25,842 nucleotides of DNA. Source: a virus. The notes under the pieces were generated by a model that was not told where the DNA came from, made no database searches, and saw only the letters and a program-made list of their open reading frames with translations. Position numbers and translations under genes: made by a program. This document shows, piece by piece, positions 4,115 to 16,615 of this stretch (positions within the stretch are counted from its first letter, which is position 1; every line of letters starts with the position of its first letter). The stretch covers positions 1 to 25,842 of the IMG/VR virus record IMGVR_UViG_3300028739_000027, one strand, 5' to 3'.

Positions 4115-4354
4115 TTTCTTAATATTTTACAGGAGGAAGGATAAAGAAGAAGACCACCCCCTCTCCCCTCTTTGGGTTACTTTTACAGTATGAAAGTCGT
4201 GAGTTGTTAATAGACCACCCCTTGTTCAGACCGAAACAGAGCTCACACGTTAGACTTAAACTTTGAACTAAAAATGTTGATTTTAAAGCATCCTACGCAA
4301 ACTTGAAAGCTCTTTCATATAAGTAGTTGAACGCAGATAGAAAGTTTATTAACA
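4115..4354. other. Gene-free stretch between structural and replication groups
   Basis: There is no credible coding frame here. The stretch includes a pyrimidine-rich patch near 4157-4173 and a 10-base direct repeat (AGACCACCCC) at 4151-4160 and 4212-4221. On the minus strand it is the leader of the UvsW-like gene and the logical site of a promoter for the replication genes. I could not find a convincing Bacteroidota -33/-7 pair (TTTG and TAnnTTTG) or a T4-like late promoter, so no promoter is called. Confidence 0.5.
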
Positions 4355-4385
4355 AAAAGAGCGGGCATGAATAGCTCGCTCTTTT
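4355..4385 (-). terminator. Bidirectional rho-independent-type terminator ending the structural operon
   Basis: The arms at 4355-4366 and 4374-4385 pair over 12 bases with a single G-T wobble around a 7-base loop (ATGAATA). The stem core is GC-rich (GAGCGGGC with GCTCGCTC) and is flanked by A's on one side and T's on the other, so on the minus strand the transcript ends in a U-rich tract. It lies 20 bases beyond the stop codon of the last structural gene, exactly where the late transcript should end. Confidence 0.85.
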
Positions 4386-4405
4386 AAATGATAAGTAATC
4401 AAGTT

Positions 4406-5236: not shown

Positions 5237-6136
5237 TTAAGAATAAGATTCTTTTTGATAATTTGGGTCAAAATTTTCACTTTCAATTAAGTCGTATTCT
5301 AAAATAAATTCAACTTCTTCACCCGTATTGTTTATTGTTTTAGCCTTATATTCGGCAAATAAAACCTCATCTGTTTTATTGCTACTTTTTTTAATCAACC
5401 TTTGTACCCAAATTCCTATTGCCCCGCCTGACAAAAATGGCTCGTCGTTATTAGTCAAAGCAACAGAGTTATCAGCTTTGTTTTTATACTCCCCGTCGAA
5501 TTGCAATACTAATTCACCGTCCGTTATAAAGGAGCATGTCTCAGGCACTGAAATAACCATCTCGTCCGTGCGTTCAATCCTCATAGTATCATCCGTTAAC
5601 CGCTTAACCGTATAATCTGTATCTTCAAGAGCCGAGTCAATAGCACTATAAGTACCGTACATCCCTTCGGAAATAGATTCACACATTACATCAAACGGAT
5701 ACAATACAAAAGATTCACCTACCGCCGCAGGTTTGACTATTTTTAAATTTACCCCCGCTCTATAAAACGCGGCTGAAAAGAACTCTGCCTGTATTGGTTC
5801 TTGATATCTGCTAGATATTTTCTCCATAAATAACTCATTCCCCACAGGAACCGCAGCCACTTTAAACTCGGCTAAATTAGTGTCGTCACCAATAATTTTC
5901 AAAGTCACGTTTTTTACGGGAAAATCAAACTTATTAACCAAACAAATTCCAATAGTTTCTTTTTGTCTTTTTTCGATTGTCAAAGAAGATATTAAATCAA
6001 ATAAAACATTCACGGCTGCATTGGGAACGGGAGAAGAAGAAACAAATCCGCCAAGGCTCCTCATTGGGTCTGTTTGAGGAAATTCTCCTCCAGACTTTAC
6101 GAGTGAAGAGGACGAGCCTGTTAAGTATATCATCAT
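5237..6136 (-). CDS. Putative virion structural protein, function unknown
   Basis: The 299-residue protein starts with two adjacent ATGs (6136 and 6133; either could serve). Residues 15-35 are a Gly/Ser/Pro-rich strand (GGEFPQTDPMRSLGG), followed by an alternating hydrophobic pattern typical of beta-sandwich virion proteins, for example TIGICLVNKFDFPVKNVTL near 61-79. The C-terminus is acidic (LIESENFDPNY). No enzymatic motif is visible. It is 4 bases from the upstream 451-residue gene and 12 bases from the downstream 272-residue gene, so all are one transcript. A peripheral baseplate or fibre-connector role is likely from position but unproven. Confidence 0.72.
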   Translation of the reverse strand: MMIYLTGSSSSLVKSGGEFPQTDPMRSLGGFVSSSPVPNAAVNVLFDLISSLTIEKRQKETIGICLVNKFDFPVKNVTLKIIGDDTNLAEFKVAAVPVGNELFMEKISSRYQEPIQAEFFSAAFYRAGVNLKIVKPAAVGESFVLYPFDVMCESISEGMYGTYSAIDSALEDTDYTVKRLTDDTMRIERTDEMVISVPETCSFITDGELVLQFDGEYKNKADNSVALTNNDEPFLSGGAIGIWVQRLIKKSSNKTDEVLFAEYKAKTINNTGEEVEFILEYDLIESENFDPNYQKESYS

Positions 6137-6140
6137 AATT

Positions 6141-7496
6141 TTATGAGTATTGTCGGGTTGTTGTTATTTTGTTTATATTAATCGCAAAAGAAGATTCTGA
6201 CAAAATTTCAGTATCGTTCAATAAATTTTTGAAATTAGCAATGCAAAATTTTTGTAAAATTGTTTTCACATTACCTATTAACCTATAACGCAACGATATT
6301 GTGCTTTTACCGTAATCGACAGGCACTGATATGCGATTATAAATGTTATCAATGTTGAGTTTGTAGTATGCAGGGTGTGCTTGACCAGATACTGAAACTT
6401 CAAACTCAATTTCGTCAAAATCAGGTATGATAACAAAATCATTTTCTGTGTCAGAAATAAAAGAAGAGTCCATATCAGGAACCGATAAATCTTTGTTGGC
6501 ATTGGAAATTATTTTTGCTCGCTTCATGTTTGAGCGATTCAACAAAATCCAACCGTTGAACATATTATCAGGTATGGAGCCAACTCCTAAATAATTGCAA
6601 CCGCCCGTTATGCGAAACGTGTTATTAGTTGACAATGGAAAGAATGAGAACGAAGATATCTTGTATCCATGTTCAATTGAAATCAACAATTGTCTTTCAG
6701 AGTGAATAGCCGCGTCTAATATGCTAACAATGGGGTTAAGTGAATTTTTATTTGCGTTAGCTGAATCGTTAAAAACCGAAATTCCTCTAAGATCTTTTAT
6801 CTCCAAGACTCCGTTTTGATATTCAGTTTGGGCTAAAAAATATTGGTCTTCAGCTAATATTGGAGCGACGTCTGATACTAGTTCTATAATAGAACAAGAG
6901 TCATATTCGTATATCAGTTCATCGTCGTTTATTTGTTCAGATCCTGGTGTAAACGTTCCGATTGCGCTGTACCTCAAATTATTTTCAGGAGCAAACGCCC
7001 CGCTTAATATAGCAGAAGTGTCTGAAATAACTTTCAAGACTTCATAATCGCTAACATTCAGATTTGAATTTAATCTTACTTTATTGGGGAAATTATTTCC
7101 GCCGCGTAGAACTTCTGTAAAATTAGTTCCAACTCCCGTTAAAGAACCATTTGCATTTACGCTTACCGAACCAGTTTCTAAATTTGTTGTTTTGTATTGA
7201 GCAACGAACCAATGTTTGAAACCGTCGGTTGAAACTATGACGCTAATAGAATTAGACAGCGTTATTAAATTAAGTTTGGAATCAACAGCAATTCCAGGAT
7301 TGAAAGTTATGGAATTTACATTACCTAACGATTTAGTTGCCTTTAGATAAGTATTTTTAGAGTCTCTAACAACTCCAAAAGATTTTATCATCGCCCCTAG
7401 AATTTTCAGATATCCGTTCTCTTTCATAAAGCTTTGGAGCTTGTTTAACTCACAAGCTTCAAGGAACAAATCGGGACTTATTTTTAATCTTGACAT
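6141..7496 (-). CDS. Putative baseplate or tail-fibre-network protein with GTGTNF-type beta domain
   Basis: In this 451-residue protein the N-terminal 50 residues are helical. Residues 109-142 carry the signature GSVSVNANGSLTGVGTNF followed by a basic turn and strands (NKVRLNS). This 'transition / G-x-GTxF' beta element recurs in phage baseplate and fibre proteins, where it builds small beta barrels. The next segment, VSDTSAILSG at 157-166, continues that repeat pattern. The rest is beta-rich with no catalytic motif. It is 28 bases after the 448-residue gene. A virion role is well supported by pattern and position; the exact place in the baseplate is not. A 74-residue frame inside it at 6278-6502 is a shadow. 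Confidence 0.75.
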   Translation of the reverse strand: MSRLKISPDLFLEACELNKLQSFMKENGYLKILGAMIKSFGVVRDSKNTYLKATKSLGNVNSITFNPGIAVDSKLNLITLSNSISVIVSTDGFKHWFVAQYKTTNLETGSVSVNANGSLTGVGTNFTEVLRGGNNFPNKVRLNSNLNVSDYEVLKVISDTSAILSGAFAPENNLRYSAIGTFTPGSEQINDDELIYEYDSCSIIELVSDVAPILAEDQYFLAQTEYQNGVLEIKDLRGISVFNDSANANKNSLNPIVSILDAAIHSERQLLISIEHGYKISSFSFFPLSTNNTFRITGGCNYLGVGSIPDNMFNGWILLNRSNMKRAKIISNANKDLSVPDMDSSFISDTENDFVIIPDFDEIEFEVSVSGQAHPAYYKLNIDNIYNRISVPVDYGKSTISLRYRLIGNVKTILQKFCIANFKNLLNDTEILSESSFAININKITTTRQYS

Positions 7497-7524
7497 ATCT
7501 ATAAATCTTTCTTATTAATACTTG

Positions 7525-8871
7525 TTAAATGTATATTGTTATGTTATTCAAATTATAAGGCAACAGATATTTGTTAGATATAAATGTTATTTGTTCATCC
7601 GTCAAGCCCTTGTTATTATTCTTAGCGAATATATAAAACAAATTATATGATTGTATAAACCCATTGCTTTTAGCATTGGCATCTCTGCTTTTCATAGGAA
7701 GTATATTAGTACCCCAAACTAGAGGTCTAACTTTGTAATTCCAGATGGAAACAGCTCCTCCCGCGTTGCTGTCAATCTGAATAAAGGGCAACATTGATTT
7801 CACAAACTTGTTATTGAAATATAAATTGTTACCAATATTCAAATTGTTTGTGTAATTGTCTTTGTTGACTGAGGAATAACAATGTATTATTCCTCTAACA
7901 TTATACCATACATCGTTTCTAAAACCAGATAGTGGAGCATCAAAGAACAAGTCGGTGATAGAATCGCCGTTTGGAGTTATGAACGCGTCAACTAGTTTGT
8001 TTTTTAAATTATCAAATCCTTCTACTCCAAAAATTAGTTTATCGTTTGGTTGTAGATTTCTTAATTTAAAACTAAATGTTATTTCGTAATCAATGGAGCT
8101 GCTAACTTTTATGAGATAGTTTGAAGCGTCTTCTGACATAGAAGTTCTTCCAATGCCACATTTACCGCTATCGGATGATAATATCAAAACTCCTTTTCCT
8201 TCTAAAAGACTCACGCTAACATTGCTGTTTTCAGTGACGAAGTAATTGTTGGCATCTACAAAGTCAGCCGTATTTTCTTTTGTTTTGTTTAAAGAGTTTA
8301 CTCCATTAATCCCCCTATACAACGGAGAACTATTACCAACAACCCAACCCATTTTAGTTTTAGGTAGTTTTGAATTTAACAGTTCGTCATTCGTGTTTGA
8401 GTTTAATACTCTTCTAAACTCACCATCTATTGGCATAACTTTAGAGTTGCTATATAGCTCACCTTTGCTTTTGAACACCAACGTTGTCCCGCGTTTGCGT
8501 ATTTCGTCGTACAAATGGTATGATAAATATTGAAGGTCTTCTAAGGTAATGTTTGATTCATCAAAGTACAAATTGTTTTGTCGGACGTTTTCTTTCATCA
8601 AATCTATGTCCGAATTAAAATTTTCAAACCTTTTTGAAAAACGTATAACCAACGAAAAAAATTTAGATATTGAAGAAAACAAGGAGAGATAATCGGCGTC
8701 AACCTCTTCGTCCCTATCATCCCCCCTTGTTATATAACAGGGAATAATACCCCTAAAATACAACTTCTTCAAAAGATTTGCACTAACAACTTCAGTCAAT
8801 GAATCGTTTAGTATATTTTTGAATATACTGGAATTTGTTACGACAAATTCATCAACTTTAGGTGCTTCCAT
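7525..8871 (-). CDS. Putative baseplate/tail protein with C-terminal jelly-roll-like region
   Basis: The 448-residue protein has a helical N-terminal half with motifs spaced as in a family of phage tail proteins I recall only loosely: IRKRGTTLVF at 124-133, DGEFRRV at 149-155, and GWVVGNSSPLY at 175-185. From about 215 to 390 the pattern becomes a beta sandwich with a hydrophobic strand series (YEITFSFKLRN, WYNVRGIIHC, AVSIWNYKVR), the layout of carbohydrate-binding modules. The last 60 residues end in short strands (NLNNITIYI). A carbohydrate-binding role is only a structural guess. It follows the 180-residue gene by 12 bases. The start is the ATG at 8871, which has no Shine-Dalgarno box. 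Confidence 0.73.
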   Translation of the reverse strand: MEAPKVDEFVVTNSSIFKNILNDSLTEVVSANLLKKLYFRGIIPCYITRGDDRDEEVDADYLSLFSSISKFFSLVIRFSKRFENFNSDIDLMKENVRQNNLYFDESNITLEDLQYLSYHLYDEIRKRGTTLVFKSKGELYSNSKVMPIDGEFRRVLNSNTNDELLNSKLPKTKMGWVVGNSSPLYRGINGVNSLNKTKENTADFVDANNYFVTENSNVSVSLLEGKGVLILSSDSGKCGIGRTSMSEDASNYLIKVSSSIDYEITFSFKLRNLQPNDKLIFGVEGFDNLKNKLVDAFITPNGDSITDLFFDAPLSGFRNDVWYNVRGIIHCYSSVNKDNYTNNLNIGNNLYFNNKFVKSMLPFIQIDSNAGGAVSIWNYKVRPLVWGTNILPMKSRDANAKSNGFIQSYNLFYIFAKNNNKGLTDEQITFISNKYLLPYNLNNITIYI

Positions 8872-8883
8872 GGTGTGTGATTA

Positions 8884-9426
8884 TTACTTTTTCTTTTTAG
8901 TTTTATCTGCCTTTATATCAGATTTAGACACTTCTTTTTTCTCCCAATTTTTTGCATCAAAGAAGAACGACAATACGGCTGATTCATCAACGCCTAATTC
9001 TATAGGGATAATGAAATTCTTGTCATCTACAGTAACCGCTTGCACTAATTGCTTTTTGTCGATTACTTCAAGAACCACGTTGCGATTTTCTTGCATTGAT
9101 TCATCGTAAACCGCCCTTAATTTGTCGTATGATTCTTTGTCTTCTTTTGAAAGCAACGCAACGGAAAGTTTAAAATCGTAATCTTCTTTTTTGCCAGCTG
9201 ATTCAGCAGCCTTTTTCTTTTCGTTGGCTAATTGAATAGCCTTATCTTCTAACTCGATAAGTTCCGGATCTGTACACTTATTTATCAATTCAACTTCTTT
9301 AGACAGTATTTCCAAATTTGATAATAAACCCAAATTAAGATGCAAATTTTTGATTTTGTTTCTCTTACAATAATTAAGAAGTTCTTGTACGTTTTGATGT
9401 ACGATTTTTATTTCTATCAATTTCAT
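8884..9426 (-). CDS. Small charged protein of the tail cluster, function unknown
   Basis: The 180-residue protein is not recognised. Residues 35-115 are a highly charged, probably coiled-coil or long-helix segment (AIQLANEKKKAAESAGKK), and residues 127-160 look beta-rich (VQAVTVDDKNFIIPIELG). The C-terminus is very Lys-rich (DIKADKTKKKK) and probably disordered. It starts 2 bases after the stop of the 113-residue gene, so these two are tightly coupled. A small virion part or a dedicated assembly chaperone for the fibre system would fit, but nothing proves it. Confidence 0.7.
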   Translation of the reverse strand: MKLIEIKIVHQNVQELLNYCKRNKIKNLHLNLGLLSNLEILSKEVELINKCTDPELIELEDKAIQLANEKKKAAESAGKKEDYDFKLSVALLSKEDKESYDKLRAVYDESMQENRNVVLEVIDKKQLVQAVTVDDKNFIIPIELGVDESAVLSFFFDAKNWEKKEVSKSDIKADKTKKKK

Positions 9427-9428
9427 TT

Positions 9429-9770
9429 TTATTCAGCGATGATTGTACAATCGCTATACTCTGGGGTTGTTAATAAATATGTTTCGCAATTTGTTTTCAA
9501 GTCTCCCGTTAGAAAATACTTATCAAACGGATTGATTTGTTCAGGAGTTGGCATAGGCGGAATATTAAAATTCATTCCTTGACCTACTGAATAGTGCCTA
9601 TCTGGGATAATCGAGCCCAAACCTTGTTCTTTTACTTCCTTATTTAGATAAGTACGAACGTTGAAATTTACGGTTTTGCCCACATAATCAATGTTAGCAT
9701 TGACTACTTCTATGCAAGCCGCGTCGGTGATGACTCCGTTTTTGAAGTCCATTGCTGTTTTGAGTGACAT
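9429..9770 (-). CDS. Small hypothetical protein beside the tail fibre
   Basis: The 113-residue protein has no recognised family. It reads as one compact beta-containing domain (IEVVNANIDYVGKTVNFNVR at about 20-39), then a Pro/Met/Ile-rich loop (IPPMPTPEQINPF at 70-82), and a C-terminal half with two Cys (94 and 108). It is 13 bases after the 359-residue fibre-associated gene and 2 bases before the 180-residue gene. Size and position resemble fibre chaperones or connector proteins seen after tail fibre genes. Function is not assigned. Confidence 0.68.
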   Translation of the reverse strand: MSLKTAMDFKNGVITDAACIEVVNANIDYVGKTVNFNVRTYLNKEVKEQGLGSIIPDRHYSVGQGMNFNIPPMPTPEQINPFDKYFLTGDLKTNCETYLLTTPEYSDCTIIAE

Positions 9771-9783
9771 AATTTTTTATTTT

Positions 9784-10863
9784 TTAATAATTGTTTAAAT
9801 CGAAACTTGTCGTTAAGGATGAGTCTCCATAATAGTATGTTATATCGACAACAGGGCTACCTGTAGCGGACTCATAGGTTTTCCCCGTTGGGGCTAATTC
9901 AACTATTATTGAACCATTAGCAGGTATTGTAACGTTTGTTGAATCTAAACCGCCAAATGTAGACGCATCAGCCATTGTTGCTGTAAGGTATAATGTTACA
10001 TCATAGTTATTTGTATTTTCAAATAGTATCTTTAAACTATCCATAAATACAGTGTAATTACCGTATCCGCCGAATGCAATGATTTTGCTATTGAAACTTA
10101 CATTTATAGCTCCTAACACAGTTCCTCCGCCGCTTCCTATTATGGTTATTGTAGTAGGCAATGCTGGTAACAAGTAAAATGTCCCGTAGAAGGTAGAATT
10201 TTGATTAAAGTACAATAAGCTATCATTTGCTTGACCTGAATGACTGAATAAAACAGGAACTATATGCCAATCTCCCAACCCTAAATCGCTCAAAATATTA
10301 ATGTTCAATTGTGAGTAATCTCTTATGTCAGATATTTTATAAAGATACCCATTGCTTGTGTTAGCCCAATTGTTCACCAATATAAAACCGACATCTAAAA
10401 CTCCTACAGCCGTTTTTGCGAATAGAAACTTATTAAAGTTTGTTAGGTAAGATACTTCAACTCCCATATTGAAAGTCCTGTTATTACCATATTCCACGCT
10501 CGCCCCTCCTCCGTTCATTACTAACGTGAACCAATTAGTTGCAGCGTGATTATAGCCTCTAAAATCTCCCAGTCGGAAAGGTGAACCTGCTCCGCCTTGC
10601 GGTTTATTATAAGTCCATTTTGTACCTGATATTAAAGCATTGATTAAATCAAGAGGGCTAGAATATGTCGGGATTGTAAATCCATCATCAATAGCAAAAT
10701 AATCGGCTTCGACTAAACCGCTTAATTTATTAAAAGAAACTGGTTTGTAAAAGCTCCATTGGTTTACATTTGACGCAACGCATAAACTTCCGACATCGCT
10801 AATTGACCTGCCCAGTGCACTGTTTACTGTAGATATGCTTACATTTGTTGTTCCTATACTCAT
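9784..10863 (-). CDS. Putative fibre-associated or tail tip structural protein
   Basis: The 359-residue protein starts 1 base after the fibre stop codon. The N-terminus (MSIGTTNVSISTVNSALG, then LCVASNVNQWSFYKPVSF at 27-44) resembles a head-end motif seen in phage tail tip or fibre-network proteins that dock on the virion. Residues 120-230 are aromatic and beta-rich (FILVNNWANTSNGYLYKI). From about 240 there is a glycine-rich, immunoglobulin-like beta segment (ITIIGSGGGTVLGAINV and TVTIPANGSIIVEL type strands). There is no enzymatic motif. Likely part of the fibre apparatus; a receptor-binding role is possible but not shown. Confidence 0.75.
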   Translation of the reverse strand: MSIGTTNVSISTVNSALGRSISDVGSLCVASNVNQWSFYKPVSFNKLSGLVEADYFAIDDGFTIPTYSSPLDLINALISGTKWTYNKPQGGAGSPFRLGDFRGYNHAATNWFTLVMNGGGASVEYGNNRTFNMGVEVSYLTNFNKFLFAKTAVGVLDVGFILVNNWANTSNGYLYKISDIRDYSQLNINILSDLGLGDWHIVPVLFSHSGQANDSLLYFNQNSTFYGTFYLLPALPTTITIIGSGGGTVLGAINVSFNSKIIAFGGYGNYTVFMDSLKILFENTNNYDVTLYLTATMADASTFGGLDSTNVTIPANGSIIVELAPTGKTYESATGSPVVDITYYYGDSSLTTSFDLNNY

Positions 10864-10864
10864 T

Positions 10865-13800
10865 TTAATTGCCTTCTAAAGTGTTTATTTTCGCTGTGAG
10901 TCCTTGAATTGCACCGATCAGATAAGGTATTAACTTGACATAATCAACACTTAAATATTCATCATTATAAACTGTATGTACCAATTCAGGAAGTACTTCT
11001 TTTAATTCCTGTGCAATTAATCCAACATCTTTTTTATCTGTTTTATTTGAATTTAATTCTTTTGCTTTCTCATTCCAATTGTATGATACAGGATTTAGTT
11101 GGTTGATAATATCTAATGAATTACCTATTGATTTAATATTACTTTTCAATCTTTTATCTGATGCAGAATAAGCAGTGATTTCACCTGTTGCTTGAATATT
11201 CCCACTTATAATTGCACCTGCTCCAATAAATCTACCATTTGAAATAATATCACCTTTTGCCCCTATTGAACCGTTTCTTGCATTAATATATACTGTTCTT
11301 GTACCATCTCCATATATATTTCCCGCACTGCCTATAAAACCAATACCTTGCCAAGATTTAATGTCTATGTTGCAATTATCATAACTTGCATCATCCCCAG
11401 TTCCAACATATACCCCAGTACTATTAGCTACAGTAAACTGTGTTGCTTGTATTGAACCATTAAATTTAGCTGATCCAGATTCTAATGAAAATTGTATTTG
11501 TTTAGAGCCATTATAACCCATATATAATGAGTGTCCATATCCAGGAATATTATTATATGTATAACCTAAACCATATGCATTTGCAACAGATGCCCAACTA
11601 TTTCCAATTGTCCAAATAACTTTATCAGTTGTGCCATTTTCATCATAATCACCACACATTGCAACAGGTGATGTTGTTTTAAAATATGTATTGGTTGTTA
11701 CTTTTGCTGTAAATTCCCCAGAACCTATAAATTTATGTCCATAACCAGTTTGAGTTGGTATATATTCAAAATTACCATTAGTGTTATTTCTACCAATAGT
11801 CATACTATATGTGGAATTACCAACTATAATATTATTTGCTGTTAAATTTCCATTTGCACTTACATTTGATGCAAATGTTGCTGTTTTATCACTATTCAAA
11901 CTTAAAACTCTATCGCTCTCTTTATCACCTGAGTCACCAACATAGAATTTTATATTTCCTGATGATTGTTTTGCAATTATAGATAGTTGTGCCCCACTAC
12001 CCGAATAATCCTGAGTTAACCCATAGTATTCACCTGATGAATCCGATTTAAAAGTAAACAGTTTAGCTGCATAAGTGTAACCATAACCATTATCATATAA
12101 ATCAATACCACCATAACCACCGTCAGATCTGATATTTGAAGTTGGCTTAATTTGATTTATATATAAAGTTCTTGCATTCCAATCAACTGTTGATAAATTT
12201 GAATTTTCATTATGCCAAAACTTTTTATAATTACCCCAATCCCCACCACTTTGACTTCTATAATATAAATCAGAACCATCACAAACTAATATCTGTCTGT
12301 AATCTAGATTATCTGCAAATGGCATTTGTATGCCCTGTATCCAAGTTCCACCCGATGGTTTATTTATCGCATCGGCTGCACAATTAAAGAAACCATAATC
12401 ATTGGGAATATTTGGGGTTAAAACATCAGATGAAAAATATGCATATCCTGCAAAATCACCTGCATTTAAACCATCCAATTTATCAGAATTGATTGAATAA
12501 CCTGCTGTTAAACTACTTGCTGTTCCTGTTAATCCAGCACCATTTCCAATAAATTGACTTGCTGAAATATCCCCCGAAAAATTACCATAGTTACCATAAA
12601 TACCTTTCCATCTCTTCCCACTATCACCTAAGTAATAAGCATTATCTGCATTAGGTGTTAATCTATCTGCACTACTTGTAAAAATATTATCAGCAAAATA
12701 TGTTGCATAAACTGTTGATGTAAATGTGGCTGTACCGTCATTTTTCAACAGAAACATATTAGAACCTCCATTATTTTTAGCTTCGATTAGGTAATGACCT
12801 GAATTACCGTCCCCCCATAACGTTAATCTACCATCCGATGCAGGTGTACCTCCTATTGATGAATTACCTCCAAATATTCCTATTCCATCCACCCACACAC
12901 TACCACTTTGAGCACTTGTTGGGTTATTTTGGATATACTTACTATCTAAAGATACTCCTGCAATAGTTGGGGCAAAATCAAAATCAAATAATCCATTTCT
13001 ATGAATTGTATAAACACCGCCCAAATATCCACCCGAATCGTCAAATCTATACAATCTTAAATCACTGCCAACATTCCCACCCGTTTCAGGTGCTTGGCTT
13101 TCAAATTCCCATCTTAGTTTAGTTCCTACACTTGAGCCATTATATACTTGCATCACGGCTCCAAAAACTGTAGATCTAAATGTATTACTTACCTCTATTT
13201 CATCCCCCCACAATTTACCCAATCGACTTGCACTTGAACCTATTGTTTGTGGGGTTGATTGAGATGTTAGTACTGCACCTAAGTAATTGCCTAAATTGTT
13301 GTTGAATTGACTAAGATTTACAGGCTTATCAGTTAAAGAATTATAGCTTTTTTCTGATAAGTTATTTAGTGAGTGATTATGAGTTGATAAAGAAAATGTA
13401 CTGCCCAAAGTAGCCGTAATTAAATTACCTGTTTTACTTATCGACGTGATCGCATTCCCTGAACCCGTAACACTCAATGACGTTGCCGAACCACTCTCGA
13501 CATTTACCAACCTACTATTGATTTGATTAATGGTGTAGGCGTTGAATGTGTCAGTAAGGTTCGAGTTATTGAAAGAACCGCCCAAGCTTGAAAGAGCATA
13601 GACCGTCTGTACAAGACCGCCACCACTACCGCCTACACCAACACCATACGCACTCAAAAAGTCTGTTGAGTATACGCCTTTGTCAATCGATAAAAAGCCA
13701 TTAGCATCAACAATTAAATTTACTGATTTAGTCCCATTGCTAATTGTTAAACCATTTAATGTTGTAGTATTATTTACATTTAAATTACCTGTTATTGTTC

Positions 13801-15397
13801 CTCCCGCTAATGGTAAATATGTTGATGTTGCTAATGCCTTTGTTAAATATAATGTTGCCGCATTTGTTATTGTTAAATAGGTTGACGATGCTTGTGACTT
13901 TGTTAAATATGTTCCTGCTGCTATACTTGTTGTTAAATATGTACTATTGTCATAACTAATAGTAGTTCCGCTGATTTTGACAAATCCCGAACCATTTAAT
14001 TGCGGTTGCTTTGTGCCGATTAAATTAGTTACTGTTCCGGCAAAGTTCGGGTCGTTCCCGAGTGCATTTGCAAGCTCGTTAAGGGCATCCAAAGAAGCGG
14101 GTGCACTACCAATTAAATCATTAAACCTGCGATCCACATAAGCGGTTGACGCTCCATTTGCCTCTAAAATTGAAATTCTCTTTTTCAGTTGTTGAGATGA
14201 AAAAGCATTGAAAGTGTTTGTTAAATCAGCATCTGAAAACGTGCCATCTGAAGCGTCTTGCAGGTCTTGATAACTAAACACTTGACTTATCAACCCTCCT
14301 CCTGAAACGCCAGTGCCTGAGCCAACGCCATATGCGCTAATTTCAACGTTCGAATATACTCCATTATCAATAAACAAAAAACCGTCGGAGTCTACTGATA
14401 AATTAACCGAATTAATTCCGTTTGTTATTGTTAACCCCCTAGTGGTAGTCGTCGCATTTACAGTCAAAGCTCCTGAAAGAGTGCCTCCAGTCAACAACAA
14501 ATAAGAAGTCCAAGGAGTTTCGGTTATCCCGTATCCAGCGAATGTTGTGGGGTGTGAAGTTAGGTCAGAAAAAGCATGGCTATGATTTTTTAATGCGTAA
14601 TTATCTGCGTACCCTTCGACGACAGATAATCTATTTGCTATTTTGCTTGTTGTGTAAGCATTAAAGGTAGAATCTAACGAAGAATTATCAAATTCTTGCG
14701 CAAGATCGTCATATCCAAAAACTTGCGATATAAGTCCGCCTGTTCCTCCCCCGCTTGGCATACCCGCGCCATACGCTGATATTTCATCTAAGCTGTAAAC
14801 CGCCTTATCAATTAAAAGTTTACCATCACAATCAACCGTTAAGTTTACGGTTTGATTTCCATTTGTTATAGCCAGCCCTCTAGTAGTGGTCAAACCGTAG
14901 GAGGTAAAAGTTTTAGCAACCCAATCAATAGTTGGTAAATTAGCGGTTAAAGCATTATAAACAGAGTTATCGTACACAATATCTGTGCCGTTTACTTTCA
15001 AATATCCGTTACCTGATAATTTGTTTTGTTTTCCGGATAATGCAGTTGCCACTGAATCTACCCAAGGAGTATCAGTTATGCCATATCCTGCAAATGTGGT
15101 CGGATGTGAAGTTAGGTCAGAAAAAGCATAGGTTGGGTTATTTGGTAACGCCACAGAAATTACTCCTTCATTATCAATAGAGATACCGCCCCCGATACGA
15201 ACACCCCCGAGCAAAGAAGAAGTTGCAATGGGCAAAACATATTCGGAAGACGAATTTAATTTTATTTGAGTTGCGATAGCCGCCGACAAGTTCAACGACA
15301 AACGAGCGATTGACTTTTCAGGACTTGAGTCATTCGTGTTTATTTGAAACGCTTTAGCTATGTCGTCTTGAAATTGTGGATAATTTATTCCGCTCAT
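10865..15397 (-). CDS. Long tail fibre with C-terminal S74 intramolecular chaperone
   Basis: This is by far the largest gene (1510 residues). The C-terminus from Ser1413 (SDKRLKSNI) to the end is the S74 peptidase/chaperone domain, which trimerises the fibre and then cleaves itself off. The Ser1413 and Lys1418 pair fits the family's Ser-Lys dyad, so the mature fibre would end near residue 1412. The N-terminal half has three about 95-residue repeats (roughly 170-262, 318-414 and 545-636), each with GL-[AT]-I-[TS]-NG, an ISAYG or LSAYG stretch, a Gly run and a short helix. The motifs LTGGTLSGALTVN, AGGTITGNLNV and LDALNELANALGNDPNFAG are common fibre elements, and two NHSH/HNH sites could bind metal as in T4 gp37. 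The distal part, from about residue 650, has strikingly low CpG. Confidence 0.95.
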   Translation of the reverse strand: MSGINYPQFQDDIAKAFQINTNDSSPEKSIARLSLNLSAAIATQIKLNSSSEYVLPIATSSLLGGVRIGGGISIDNEGVISVALPNNPTYAFSDLTSHPTTFAGYGITDTPWVDSVATALSGKQNKLSGNGYLKVNGTDIVYDNSVYNALTANLPTIDWVAKTFTSYGLTTTRGLAITNGNQTVNLTVDCDGKLLIDKAVYSLDEISAYGAGMPSGGGTGGLISQVFGYDDLAQEFDNSSLDSTFNAYTTSKIANRLSVVEGYADNYALKNHSHAFSDLTSHPTTFAGYGITETPWTSYLLLTGGTLSGALTVNATTTTRGLTITNGINSVNLSVDSDGFLFIDNGVYSNVEISAYGVGSGTGVSGGGLISQVFSYQDLQDASDGTFSDADLTNTFNAFSSQQLKKRISILEANGASTAYVDRRFNDLIGSAPASLDALNELANALGNDPNFAGTVTNLIGTKQPQLNGSGFVKISGTTISYDNSTYLTTSIAAGTYLTKSQASSTYLTITNAATLYLTKALATSTYLPLAGGTITGNLNVNNTTTLNGLTISNGTKSVNLIVDANGFLSIDKGVYSTDFLSAYGVGVGGSGGGLVQTVYALSSLGGSFNNSNLTDTFNAYTINQINSRLVNVESGSATSLSVTGSGNAITSISKTGNLITATLGSTFSLSTHNHSLNNLSEKSYNSLTDKPVNLSQFNNNLGNYLGAVLTSQSTPQTIGSSASRLGKLWGDEIEVSNTFRSTVFGAVMQVYNGSSVGTKLRWEFESQAPETGGNVGSDLRLYRFDDSGGYLGGVYTIHRNGLFDFDFAPTIAGVSLDSKYIQNNPTSAQSGSVWVDGIGIFGGNSSIGGTPASDGRLTLWGDGNSGHYLIEAKNNGGSNMFLLKNDGTATFTSTVYATYFADNIFTSSADRLTPNADNAYYLGDSGKRWKGIYGNYGNFSGDISASQFIGNGAGLTGTASSLTAGYSINSDKLDGLNAGDFAGYAYFSSDVLTPNIPNDYGFFNCAADAINKPSGGTWIQGIQMPFADNLDYRQILVCDGSDLYYRSQSGGDWGNYKKFWHNENSNLSTVDWNARTLYINQIKPTSNIRSDGGYGGIDLYDNGYGYTYAAKLFTFKSDSSGEYYGLTQDYSGSGAQLSIIAKQSSGNIKFYVGDSGDKESDRVLSLNSDKTATFASNVSANGNLTANNIIVGNSTYSMTIGRNNTNGNFEYIPTQTGYGHKFIGSGEFTAKVTTNTYFKTTSPVAMCGDYDENGTTDKVIWTIGNSWASVANAYGLGYTYNNIPGYGHSLYMGYNGSKQIQFSLESGSAKFNGSIQATQFTVANSTGVYVGTGDDASYDNCNIDIKSWQGIGFIGSAGNIYGDGTRTVYINARNGSIGAKGDIISNGRFIGAGAIISGNIQATGEITAYSASDKRLKSNIKSIGNSLDIINQLNPVSYNWNEKAKELNSNKTDKKDVGLIAQELKEVLPELVHTVYNDEYLSVDYVKLIPYLIGAIQGLTAKINTLEGN
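10921..12720. other. CpG-depleted distal tail-fibre segment (likely acquired)
   Basis: By my count about ten CG dinucleotides occur in these 1800 bases, and none between 11341 and 11880. The fibre's own proximal end is very different, with about 16 CG in 15181-15400, and 9781-10140 next door has about 13 in 360. A second moderately poor zone continues to about 13440, after which CG becomes frequent again (seven in 13441-13500). Confidence 0.75.
14553..15129. repeat. 25-base direct repeat within the fibre gene
   Basis: An identical 25-base string occurs at 14553-14577 and again at 15105-15129, 552 bases apart. It encodes part of the duplicated AFSDLTSHPTTFAGYGIT module (fibre residues 91-108 and 275-292), a widely occurring phage fibre unit. 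Confidence 0.9.
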
Positions 15398-15412: not shown

Positions 15413-16615
15413 TTATATTGTAGCTAACACAGATTGTTGAAAAGAATAATCAGGTTCATTTGGATAATAAAACGAACTTAGCACACCCGCGTTATCATAT
15501 ATCAGATTACCATCTAAATCCCGTATTACAAACCCTCTAATCCTTGGTAATTGACCTTTCGGTACGTTCGTGTCAGCGCGAGGGTAAAAGTTTGTATCAG
15601 GCACATAACGGACGTCAGTTGTATTTTGAGCCACGAACAATAGATTTTCCCATTCTATCTTATCGCCATCTTTCCAAAATCTGTAATCGAAAAGTTTCGA
15701 CATTTGAATTTGTAAATCTTTTCTCACTGTATCTTTATCCGCCGCTGGATTTATGTCCAACCTGAATTGTATATCAACTAAAAACCATTTCACGTTATTC
15801 AGTTGCAATGAAAAGGTAGAGGCATCGGTATAATTCAAAAATTCGCTTATTGATAAAAATTCTTCAGACCTTGACACCATATCATTTATTTCGTCGGTCG
15901 TAAAGTCTTGCCCGTTACACGGAACAATGGTTAGGTTTAATTTACCTGAAGCGTCAACTCCGCCCTTGATAACCCTCAAGACGTTATTATTGATTTTCAT
16001 CAATATTTGCTCAATATAAGAAATTGTATTTCTTGCTAATTGATTAACGCTTTCCTTTACCCGTATTCGATAAGTATCGTCACTTTCAGAGTCTGTGCCT
16101 CCAATTGCTTGATATTCGTTAGTGCAAGAAATATGACCTTGCGGAATTACGGACATTCTATTTATAGAAACTGGGTCTACTTTTGTACGTATGCCCGTCG
16201 AGTCGCTCTTTACTTTTGCATATTCAAACCCTTGAGATCCTATGGTCACATCCGTTTCAAGAGAAAAATAAATACCGCTCGTACTTATGAATTTATTATC
16301 AACGGCTGAATAATAAGTTCCTGCATCTGCTACCAAACGAATGTAGGTCGAGCTTCCGGAAGCAGGAAATCTTTCAGATACGCCTTTTCTTTTAGCTGCT
16401 TCGTCAAGATAACTGCCATATGAAGAGTCCGGAAATATATGCCCCTCAACTACAGCTTGATTCACTAAACACTTTTGGCCAATTTTCCCTACACCATAAC
16501 CTATGCCGTTGAGCACAGATTCATTTGATATGTCGTTTACCTTATCGGTCTTATTTAAAAATATTTCCAAGAATATTTGCTTCAACTCTTGAACTGTGCT
16601 TACTTTAGTTATCAT
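15413..16615 (-). CDS. Baseplate wedge protein, gpJ/gp47-like
   Basis: The 400-residue protein fits the baseplate assembly protein J family (P2 gpJ, T4 gp6 type), which forms the wedge ring around the hub. GSYLDEAAKRKGV at 67-79 and the diagnostic segment GGTDSESDDTYRIRV at 172-186 match the family's conserved GG-x-D-x-E-S-[DE]-x-x-[FY]-R-x-R signature. The C-terminal third, with strands and a WENLLF segment near 315, is usual. It overlaps the upstream wedge candidate by four bases (ATGA) and lies 15 bases before the tail fibre gene, which it presumably helps attach. Length agrees with the family. Start ATG at 16615. Confidence 0.9.
   Translation of the reverse strand: MITKVSTVQELKQIFLEIFLNKTDKVNDISNESVLNGIGYGVGKIGQKCLVNQAVVEGHIFPDSSYGSYLDEAAKRKGVSERFPASGSSTYIRLVADAGTYYSAVDNKFISTSGIYFSLETDVTIGSQGFEYAKVKSDSTGIRTKVDPVSINRMSVIPQGHISCTNEYQAIGGTDSESDDTYRIRVKESVNQLARNTISYIEQILMKINNNVLRVIKGGVDASGKLNLTIVPCNGQDFTTDEINDMVSRSEEFLSISEFLNYTDASTFSLQLNNVKWFLVDIQFRLDINPAADKDTVRKDLQIQMSKLFDYRFWKDGDKIEWENLLFVAQNTTDVRYVPDTNFYPRADTNVPKGQLPRIRGFVIRDLDGNLIYDNAGVLSSFYYPNEPDYSFQQSVLATI

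Follow-up and report, generated by a model that had tools for sequence, protein, structure and literature searches.

Tail fibre gene and its CpG step

The analysed stretch, hereafter the window, comprises 25,842 nucleotides of the IMG/VR virus record IMGVR_UViG_3300028739_000027. Its minus strand carries a gene of 1510 codons (positions 10865–15397), the product of which matches PHROG families of tail fibres and of long-tail-fibre distal subunits. A T4 gp36-like stretch (PF03903, 37.1 bits) precedes a C-terminal Peptidase_S74 (chaperone of endosialidase) domain (PF13884, 69.1 bits against a curated cut-off of 22; residues 1413–1474, positions 10976–11161), placing the protein in the class of T4 gp36/gp37-like distal fibres with an S74 intramolecular chaperone. 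This domain opens with SDKRLK or SDERLK in all aligned tips, and self-cleavage and a role as a trimerising chaperone are predicted for it. In the T4-type long tail fibres with gp37 and gp38, the distal fibre is swapped between conserved segments. The window fibre resembles the gp37 system in its matches to PF03903 and gp37-type PHROGs, but the T4-type tip relies on a gp38-type protein, while the tip of the window fibre ends in an S74 self-chaperone.

The fibre gene is located directly downstream of a gene of the CpG-normal backbone (15413–16615, minus strand), encoding a Baseplate J-like wedge protein (PF04865) related to those of Chryseobacterium phage MA9V-3 and Bacteroides phage DAC16. It is followed on the same strand by a gene for a protein of 359 amino acids (9784–10863), a probable second adhesin or fibre-associated protein judging from its alignment with a relative in the phage G002. 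Other relatives of this protein are found in Parabacteroides phages and in the human-gut phages cr106_1 and cr112_1, by their names crAss-like phages. The phage kin of these two neighbours suggest that the recipient is probably a contractile-tailed Bacteroidota phage (myophage). A search of isolated phages with the fibre yielded only weak matches to the shaft or the S74 domain, and alignment of the tip against genome contigs produced no match beyond one of 28% in a Flavobacteriales MAG, so that no host was assigned; by kinship, the host of donor and recipient was narrowed no further than Bacteroidota.

Analysis of the window in bins of 500 bases revealed CpG observed/expected ratios of 0.18, 0.09, 0.48, and 0.41 over positions 11001–13000, and of at least 0.78 in all other bins. 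Under a null model in which the fibre protein was recoded by sampling codons from the remaining window genes, the best two-rate segment found by maximum likelihood spans 10921–13411 (residues 663–1492), with 21 CpG observed and 99.6 expected (Poisson P ~1e-21). The rest of the fibre, containing 91 CpG versus 84.8 expected, includes the proximal shaft built of repeated modules (residues 1–662, 13412–15397). A second method, a two-state segmentation, assigned residues 661–1490 to the CpG-poor state. The initial annotation had described a CpG-depleted distal fibre with an abrupt change inside one open frame and a CpG-rich proximal part; the bins and both segmentations confirm this, and the best-fitting segment agrees with its limits (10921–13440) within 30 bases. 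Its counts of about ten CG pairs in 1800 bases and none over 540 bases are also borne out, with ten CpG in 10921–12720 and none in a run of about 588 bases (11326–11913), while the segment makes up about 55% of the fibre instead of the two thirds that had been proposed. The dinucleotide and codon-usage analysis that it recommended shows, besides the fall in CpG, a drop of GC3 from 0.21–0.41 to 0.09–0.23 and a rise of CpA to 1.64 in the tip, with a CpA/TpG value of 1.30 for both strands combined.

Tip switching by an invertase or a shufflon was considered and rejected, since no suitable repeats are present: the search for repeats in the window found one weak 24-base inverted pair only, both arms of which lie inside the downstream gene, and no alternative tip cassette was found among the open reading frames of the window.

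Relatives and silent-site divergence of the shaft and the tip

The two parts of the fibre have different relatives, as would be expected of an exchanged tip; the initial annotation had named such a difference as support for a swap. The best relatives of the shaft are sister phages (L004 and others), which share about 80% DNA identity with the window over the tail genes and are likewise CpG-normal; the last shaft module (residues 565–660) also occurs in the CpG-normal contigs L009 and L013. Sisters aside, the relatives of the tip were found in CpG-poor contigs, namely G002 and G006, which have siphophage-like tail genes, and crAss-like phages, including G001 and G003, the capsid protein of which is of the crAss type (PF23898). 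The CpG ratios of these contigs are 0.36 (G002), 0.45 (G006), 0.52 (G003), and 0.58 (G001), with values of about 0.3–0.5 in the late block of G001. A tip domain covering residues ~1206–1391 (11225–11782), with close relatives at 55–70% amino acid identity, was found only in CpG-poor phages and is absent from the sisters. Beyond the sister lineage, residues ~910–1205 lack a good relative, and therefore the exact donor was not found; over residues 1233–1391, the closest donor shares only about 50% of amino acids in a global alignment and is not the immediate one.

Among 48 relatives of the S74 tip, the CpG content of the tip tracks that of its contig (r = 0.81, slope 1.0); that is, tip CpG usually reports the genome of residence. 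The window and its sister deviate from this relation by −5.0 and −4.5 SD, respectively, and their tips have therefore lived elsewhere. The composition of the window tip is that of the donor genomes and not that of the recipient, and the donor contigs show over their whole length the same loss of CpG with an excess of CpA/TpG. Recoding of TGA was rejected as a cause of low CpG, since the crAss-like phage MT835470, with 39 TGA versus 398 TGG in its open frames, behaves as a standard-code phage and is CpG-poor as well (0.46).

Divergence at silent sites, measured as the fraction of identical codons at same-residue positions between the window and L004, falls at the same place as CpG. The fraction is 0.51–0.63 for backbone genes lying upstream of the fibre and 0.82 for the S74 domain. 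At the junction, synonymous identity changes from 39 of 77 positions on the shaft side (residues 569–668) to 44 of 57 on the tip side (residues 669–728; Fisher P = 0.002). Just inside the CpG step, and within 6 bases of it, lies an exact match of 74 bases to L004 (13332–13405), likely the crossover side of the junction, and alignment and motif positions place next to it a joint motif common to crAss-like fibres, NLSQFNNNLGNY (residues 694–705, 13283–13318). Judged by silent sites, the S74 domain and the junction are thus younger than the backbone, as an exchanged tip should be, while residues 664–910, with a four-fold-site identity of 0.57, are near the backbone level and not clearly younger. 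The sisters differ strongly between the conserved joints. At the distal end (residues 1392–1510), the window shares 85.4% DNA identity with L004 and 83.8% with L033, a G002 locus. Outside the fibre, a non-coding stretch of the window (4115–4405), likely a regulatory site or RNA, matches the sister exactly over 72 bases (4182–4253), while silent sites in the genome are near saturation.

The CpG step recurs in the sister L004 at the homologous joint. Its S74 region shares 90.5% DNA identity and 0.92 codon identity with that of L033, and beyond the tip and the beginning of the following gene no close DNA match between L004 and G002 was seen. On the S74 tree, L004 joins G002 (98/81) apart from the S74 of the window, in a small group with long branches contained in a fork with support of only 85/77. 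The gene downstream of the fibre has a different history in the two sisters. In the window it is an old resident, with 67% protein identity to its G002 relative, saturated four-fold sites (0.36 identical), and CpG of 0.95 versus 0.32; its window-level CpG shows the effect of long residence. The L004 version is a different one, with CpG of 0.40, and was apparently imported together with the L004 tip. A second CpG-poor patch, in the shaft of L004 (codons 451–675 of the gene at 9001–14097; 8 CpG versus about 24 expected), has relatives in CpG-poor G002 and in the window's own shaft, and is perhaps another import.

Origin of the distal fibre segment

Composition, homology, and silent-site age are three lines of evidence that the swap is real and well delimited. 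Very probably, the outer 55% or so of the fibre was acquired by recombination from CpG-poor Bacteroidota phages with other tail types. The tip, together with its self-chaperoning S74 domain, would have been recombined in from a pool of such phages, with one crossover end in the block of shaft and joint around 13332–13411, including the NLSQFNNNLGNY motif, and the other in the conserved S74 domain and the first part of the following gene. Homologous recombination would be the simplest mechanism, and we infer the direction of transfer to be from the CpG-poor phages to the lineage of the window. The CpG-poor composition of the donor would have been retained owing to too little time for change since entry. 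A tip that moves with its own chaperone would stay foldable and, judging from its position only, the new tip could change the attachment target and hence the host range.

An assembly chimera joining the fibres of two phages could also produce a sharp step, and the repeats of the shaft can mislead assemblers. However, contigs 3300028774_000021 and 3300028767_000072, originating from separate metagenomes, are identical in sequence across both edges of the segment, and therefore the step is not an assembly join; with a homologous junction present in several contigs of the sister lineage as well, this explanation is hardly credible. Depletion of CpG in place, by selection for avoidance of a CpG-recognising defence or by local deamination, would agree with the CpA of 1.64 in the tip and the CpA/TpG value of 1.30, as expected from change of CpG to TpG/CpA. 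It is nevertheless very unlikely, since it explains neither the sharp edge within a single gene nor the step in silent-site divergence at the junction, the tips of the 48 relatives follow their contigs in CpG, and the contigs of the donors bear the same signature throughout.

The initial annotation had named a similar CpG profile in relatives as an argument against a swap, and the closest relative, L004, does have such a profile. A single import before the split of the window and L004, with CpG depletion persisting in both, would account for the step at the same joint and for the backbone-like silent divergence of residues 664–910. On the other hand, silent sites in the S74 domain and the junction block have diverged far less than those of the backbone, the S74 domain of L004 is nearer to that of G002 than to that of the window, the sisters lack the 1206–1391 domain, and a gene resident for that long (9784–10863) has normal CpG; a single old import is thus improbable. 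Because the junction and the S74 domain are younger than the backbone split, and because the S74 domain of L004 groups with that of G002, the data favour repeated draws instead of a single event: it looks as if the tips are younger than the phages that carry them, both sisters having drawn repeatedly from one CpG-poor pool at the same joint. The proposal of the initial annotation, a recent replacement of the receptor-binding half from a different phage or host, therefore stands in large part on relatives, composition, and silent sites, with repeated acquisition in place of one event and without an exact donor.

Phages of different shapes are known to exchange fibre modules. In the Alteromonas phages A5, V22, and P24, a host-recognition module is common to podo-, myo-, and siphophage shapes owing to horizontal transfer (PMC10579305). 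The segment in the window resembles this module, in which a tail fibre and its cognate chaperone are exchanged across phage shapes, but the Alteromonas chaperone is a protein of its own and the transfers are thought to be old (PMC10579305), while in the window the S74 chaperone is inside the fibre and the swap point is intragenic and marked by a CpG step. In a protein-level study, tail fibres and tail spikes were the only proteins in which recent mosaicism between phage families was found (PMC10684548); the window adds a composition signature of the donor and a difference in genetic code between the sharing phages. Beyond these studies (PMC10579305, PMC10684548), the analysis contributes this particular mosaic, CpG as a marker, and a possible code-crossing pool. 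For uncultivated phages, the analysis locates the cut-and-join points of the host-recognition part within a fibre gene and shows what kind of phages supply it, and CpG content offers an inexpensive way to detect recently imported fibres in metagenomic data.

TGA codons in the fibres of recoded phages

Some of the donor-side phages read TGA as tryptophan: the FISUMP motif reads SPSG[TGA]HVPT, and open-frame coverage of L012 increases from 0.59 to 0.90 when TGA is read through. G001 and G003 encode a 74-nt tRNA with the anticodon UCA, and G001 uses mainly TGG in early genes and TGA in late genes. Reading of TGA as tryptophan in late genes has been described for crAss-like phages (PMC7886860); G001 and G003 resemble them in having it largely confined to late genes and in the UCA tRNA, but differ in lacking TGA in the fibre tip and the gene after it, amid TGA-rich late genes. 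TGA accounts for 154 of 233 tryptophan codons in late genes, a tally that leaves out the fibres, the adjoining gene, and a TGG-only gene of 754 codons, and for 0 of 22 in two fibre tips and the next gene (P = 3e-10). Over the fibre tips of TGA-recoded phages, the count is 0 of 39, the tip being taken to begin after the last TGA, which makes the split within the gene partly post hoc. In the G001/G003 fibre, all six TGA codons precede residue 692 and all ten TGG codons lie from residue 731 on, with a joint, KPTLLSQFTNDLGNY, similar to that at the window junction, between the two parts. Three other fibres have one TGA near the N-terminus followed by TGG codons only (13 in G002, 9 in G006, and 7 in the second G001 fibre); these single TGA codons are probably homologous. 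A brief literature search found no earlier report of TGA-free tips in recoded crAss-like phages.

One could tentatively suggest that the pool of tips circulates between standard-code phages and phages reading TGA as tryptophan, the tips acting as code-neutral cassettes, although we consider this somewhat less probable than the contrary. A TGA codon would truncate the tip in standard-code phages, and tips in the pool would thus be kept free of it; in recoded phages, a TGG-only tip would be joined near the joint motif to a shaft with few tryptophan codons, all TGA. The proposal is put forward only as a possibility because of the post hoc definition of the tip, the probable homology of the three TGA codons, the few genomes on which the pattern rests, and the existence of other TGG-only genes, namely a capsid gene, the 754-codon gene, and one G002 tail gene. 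If it is correct, the switch from TGA to TGG would mark exchange independently of CpG. Should the TGG-only pattern extend to more genomes, phages can trade host-recognition parts despite a difference in genetic code, and the pattern would predict the genes that a recoded phage has to keep legible under either code. The tail gene preceding the fibre is rich in TGG (9 of 9 tryptophan codons in G002, L033 4036–6192; 9 of 11 in G006, L008 4818–6968), and therefore the region free of TGA may extend to further proteins in contact with the host.

The crAss-like contig G001, 213 kb in length, contains some two dozen tRNA genes, including that with the UCA anticodon in L049, and a tmRNA gene (L051 8160–8566) in the L051–L052 region. 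Its fibre region seemingly occurs twice (3–34000 and ~203000–213486), with fibres at 5895–10631 and 211201–213486 and the same neighbours, which seems to be a terminal repeat or an assembly overlap. In G005, a member of the window's sister lineage, a permuted tmRNA-like gene with the tag GKTINFSNAPLRAVA was predicted (L069 12208–12586).
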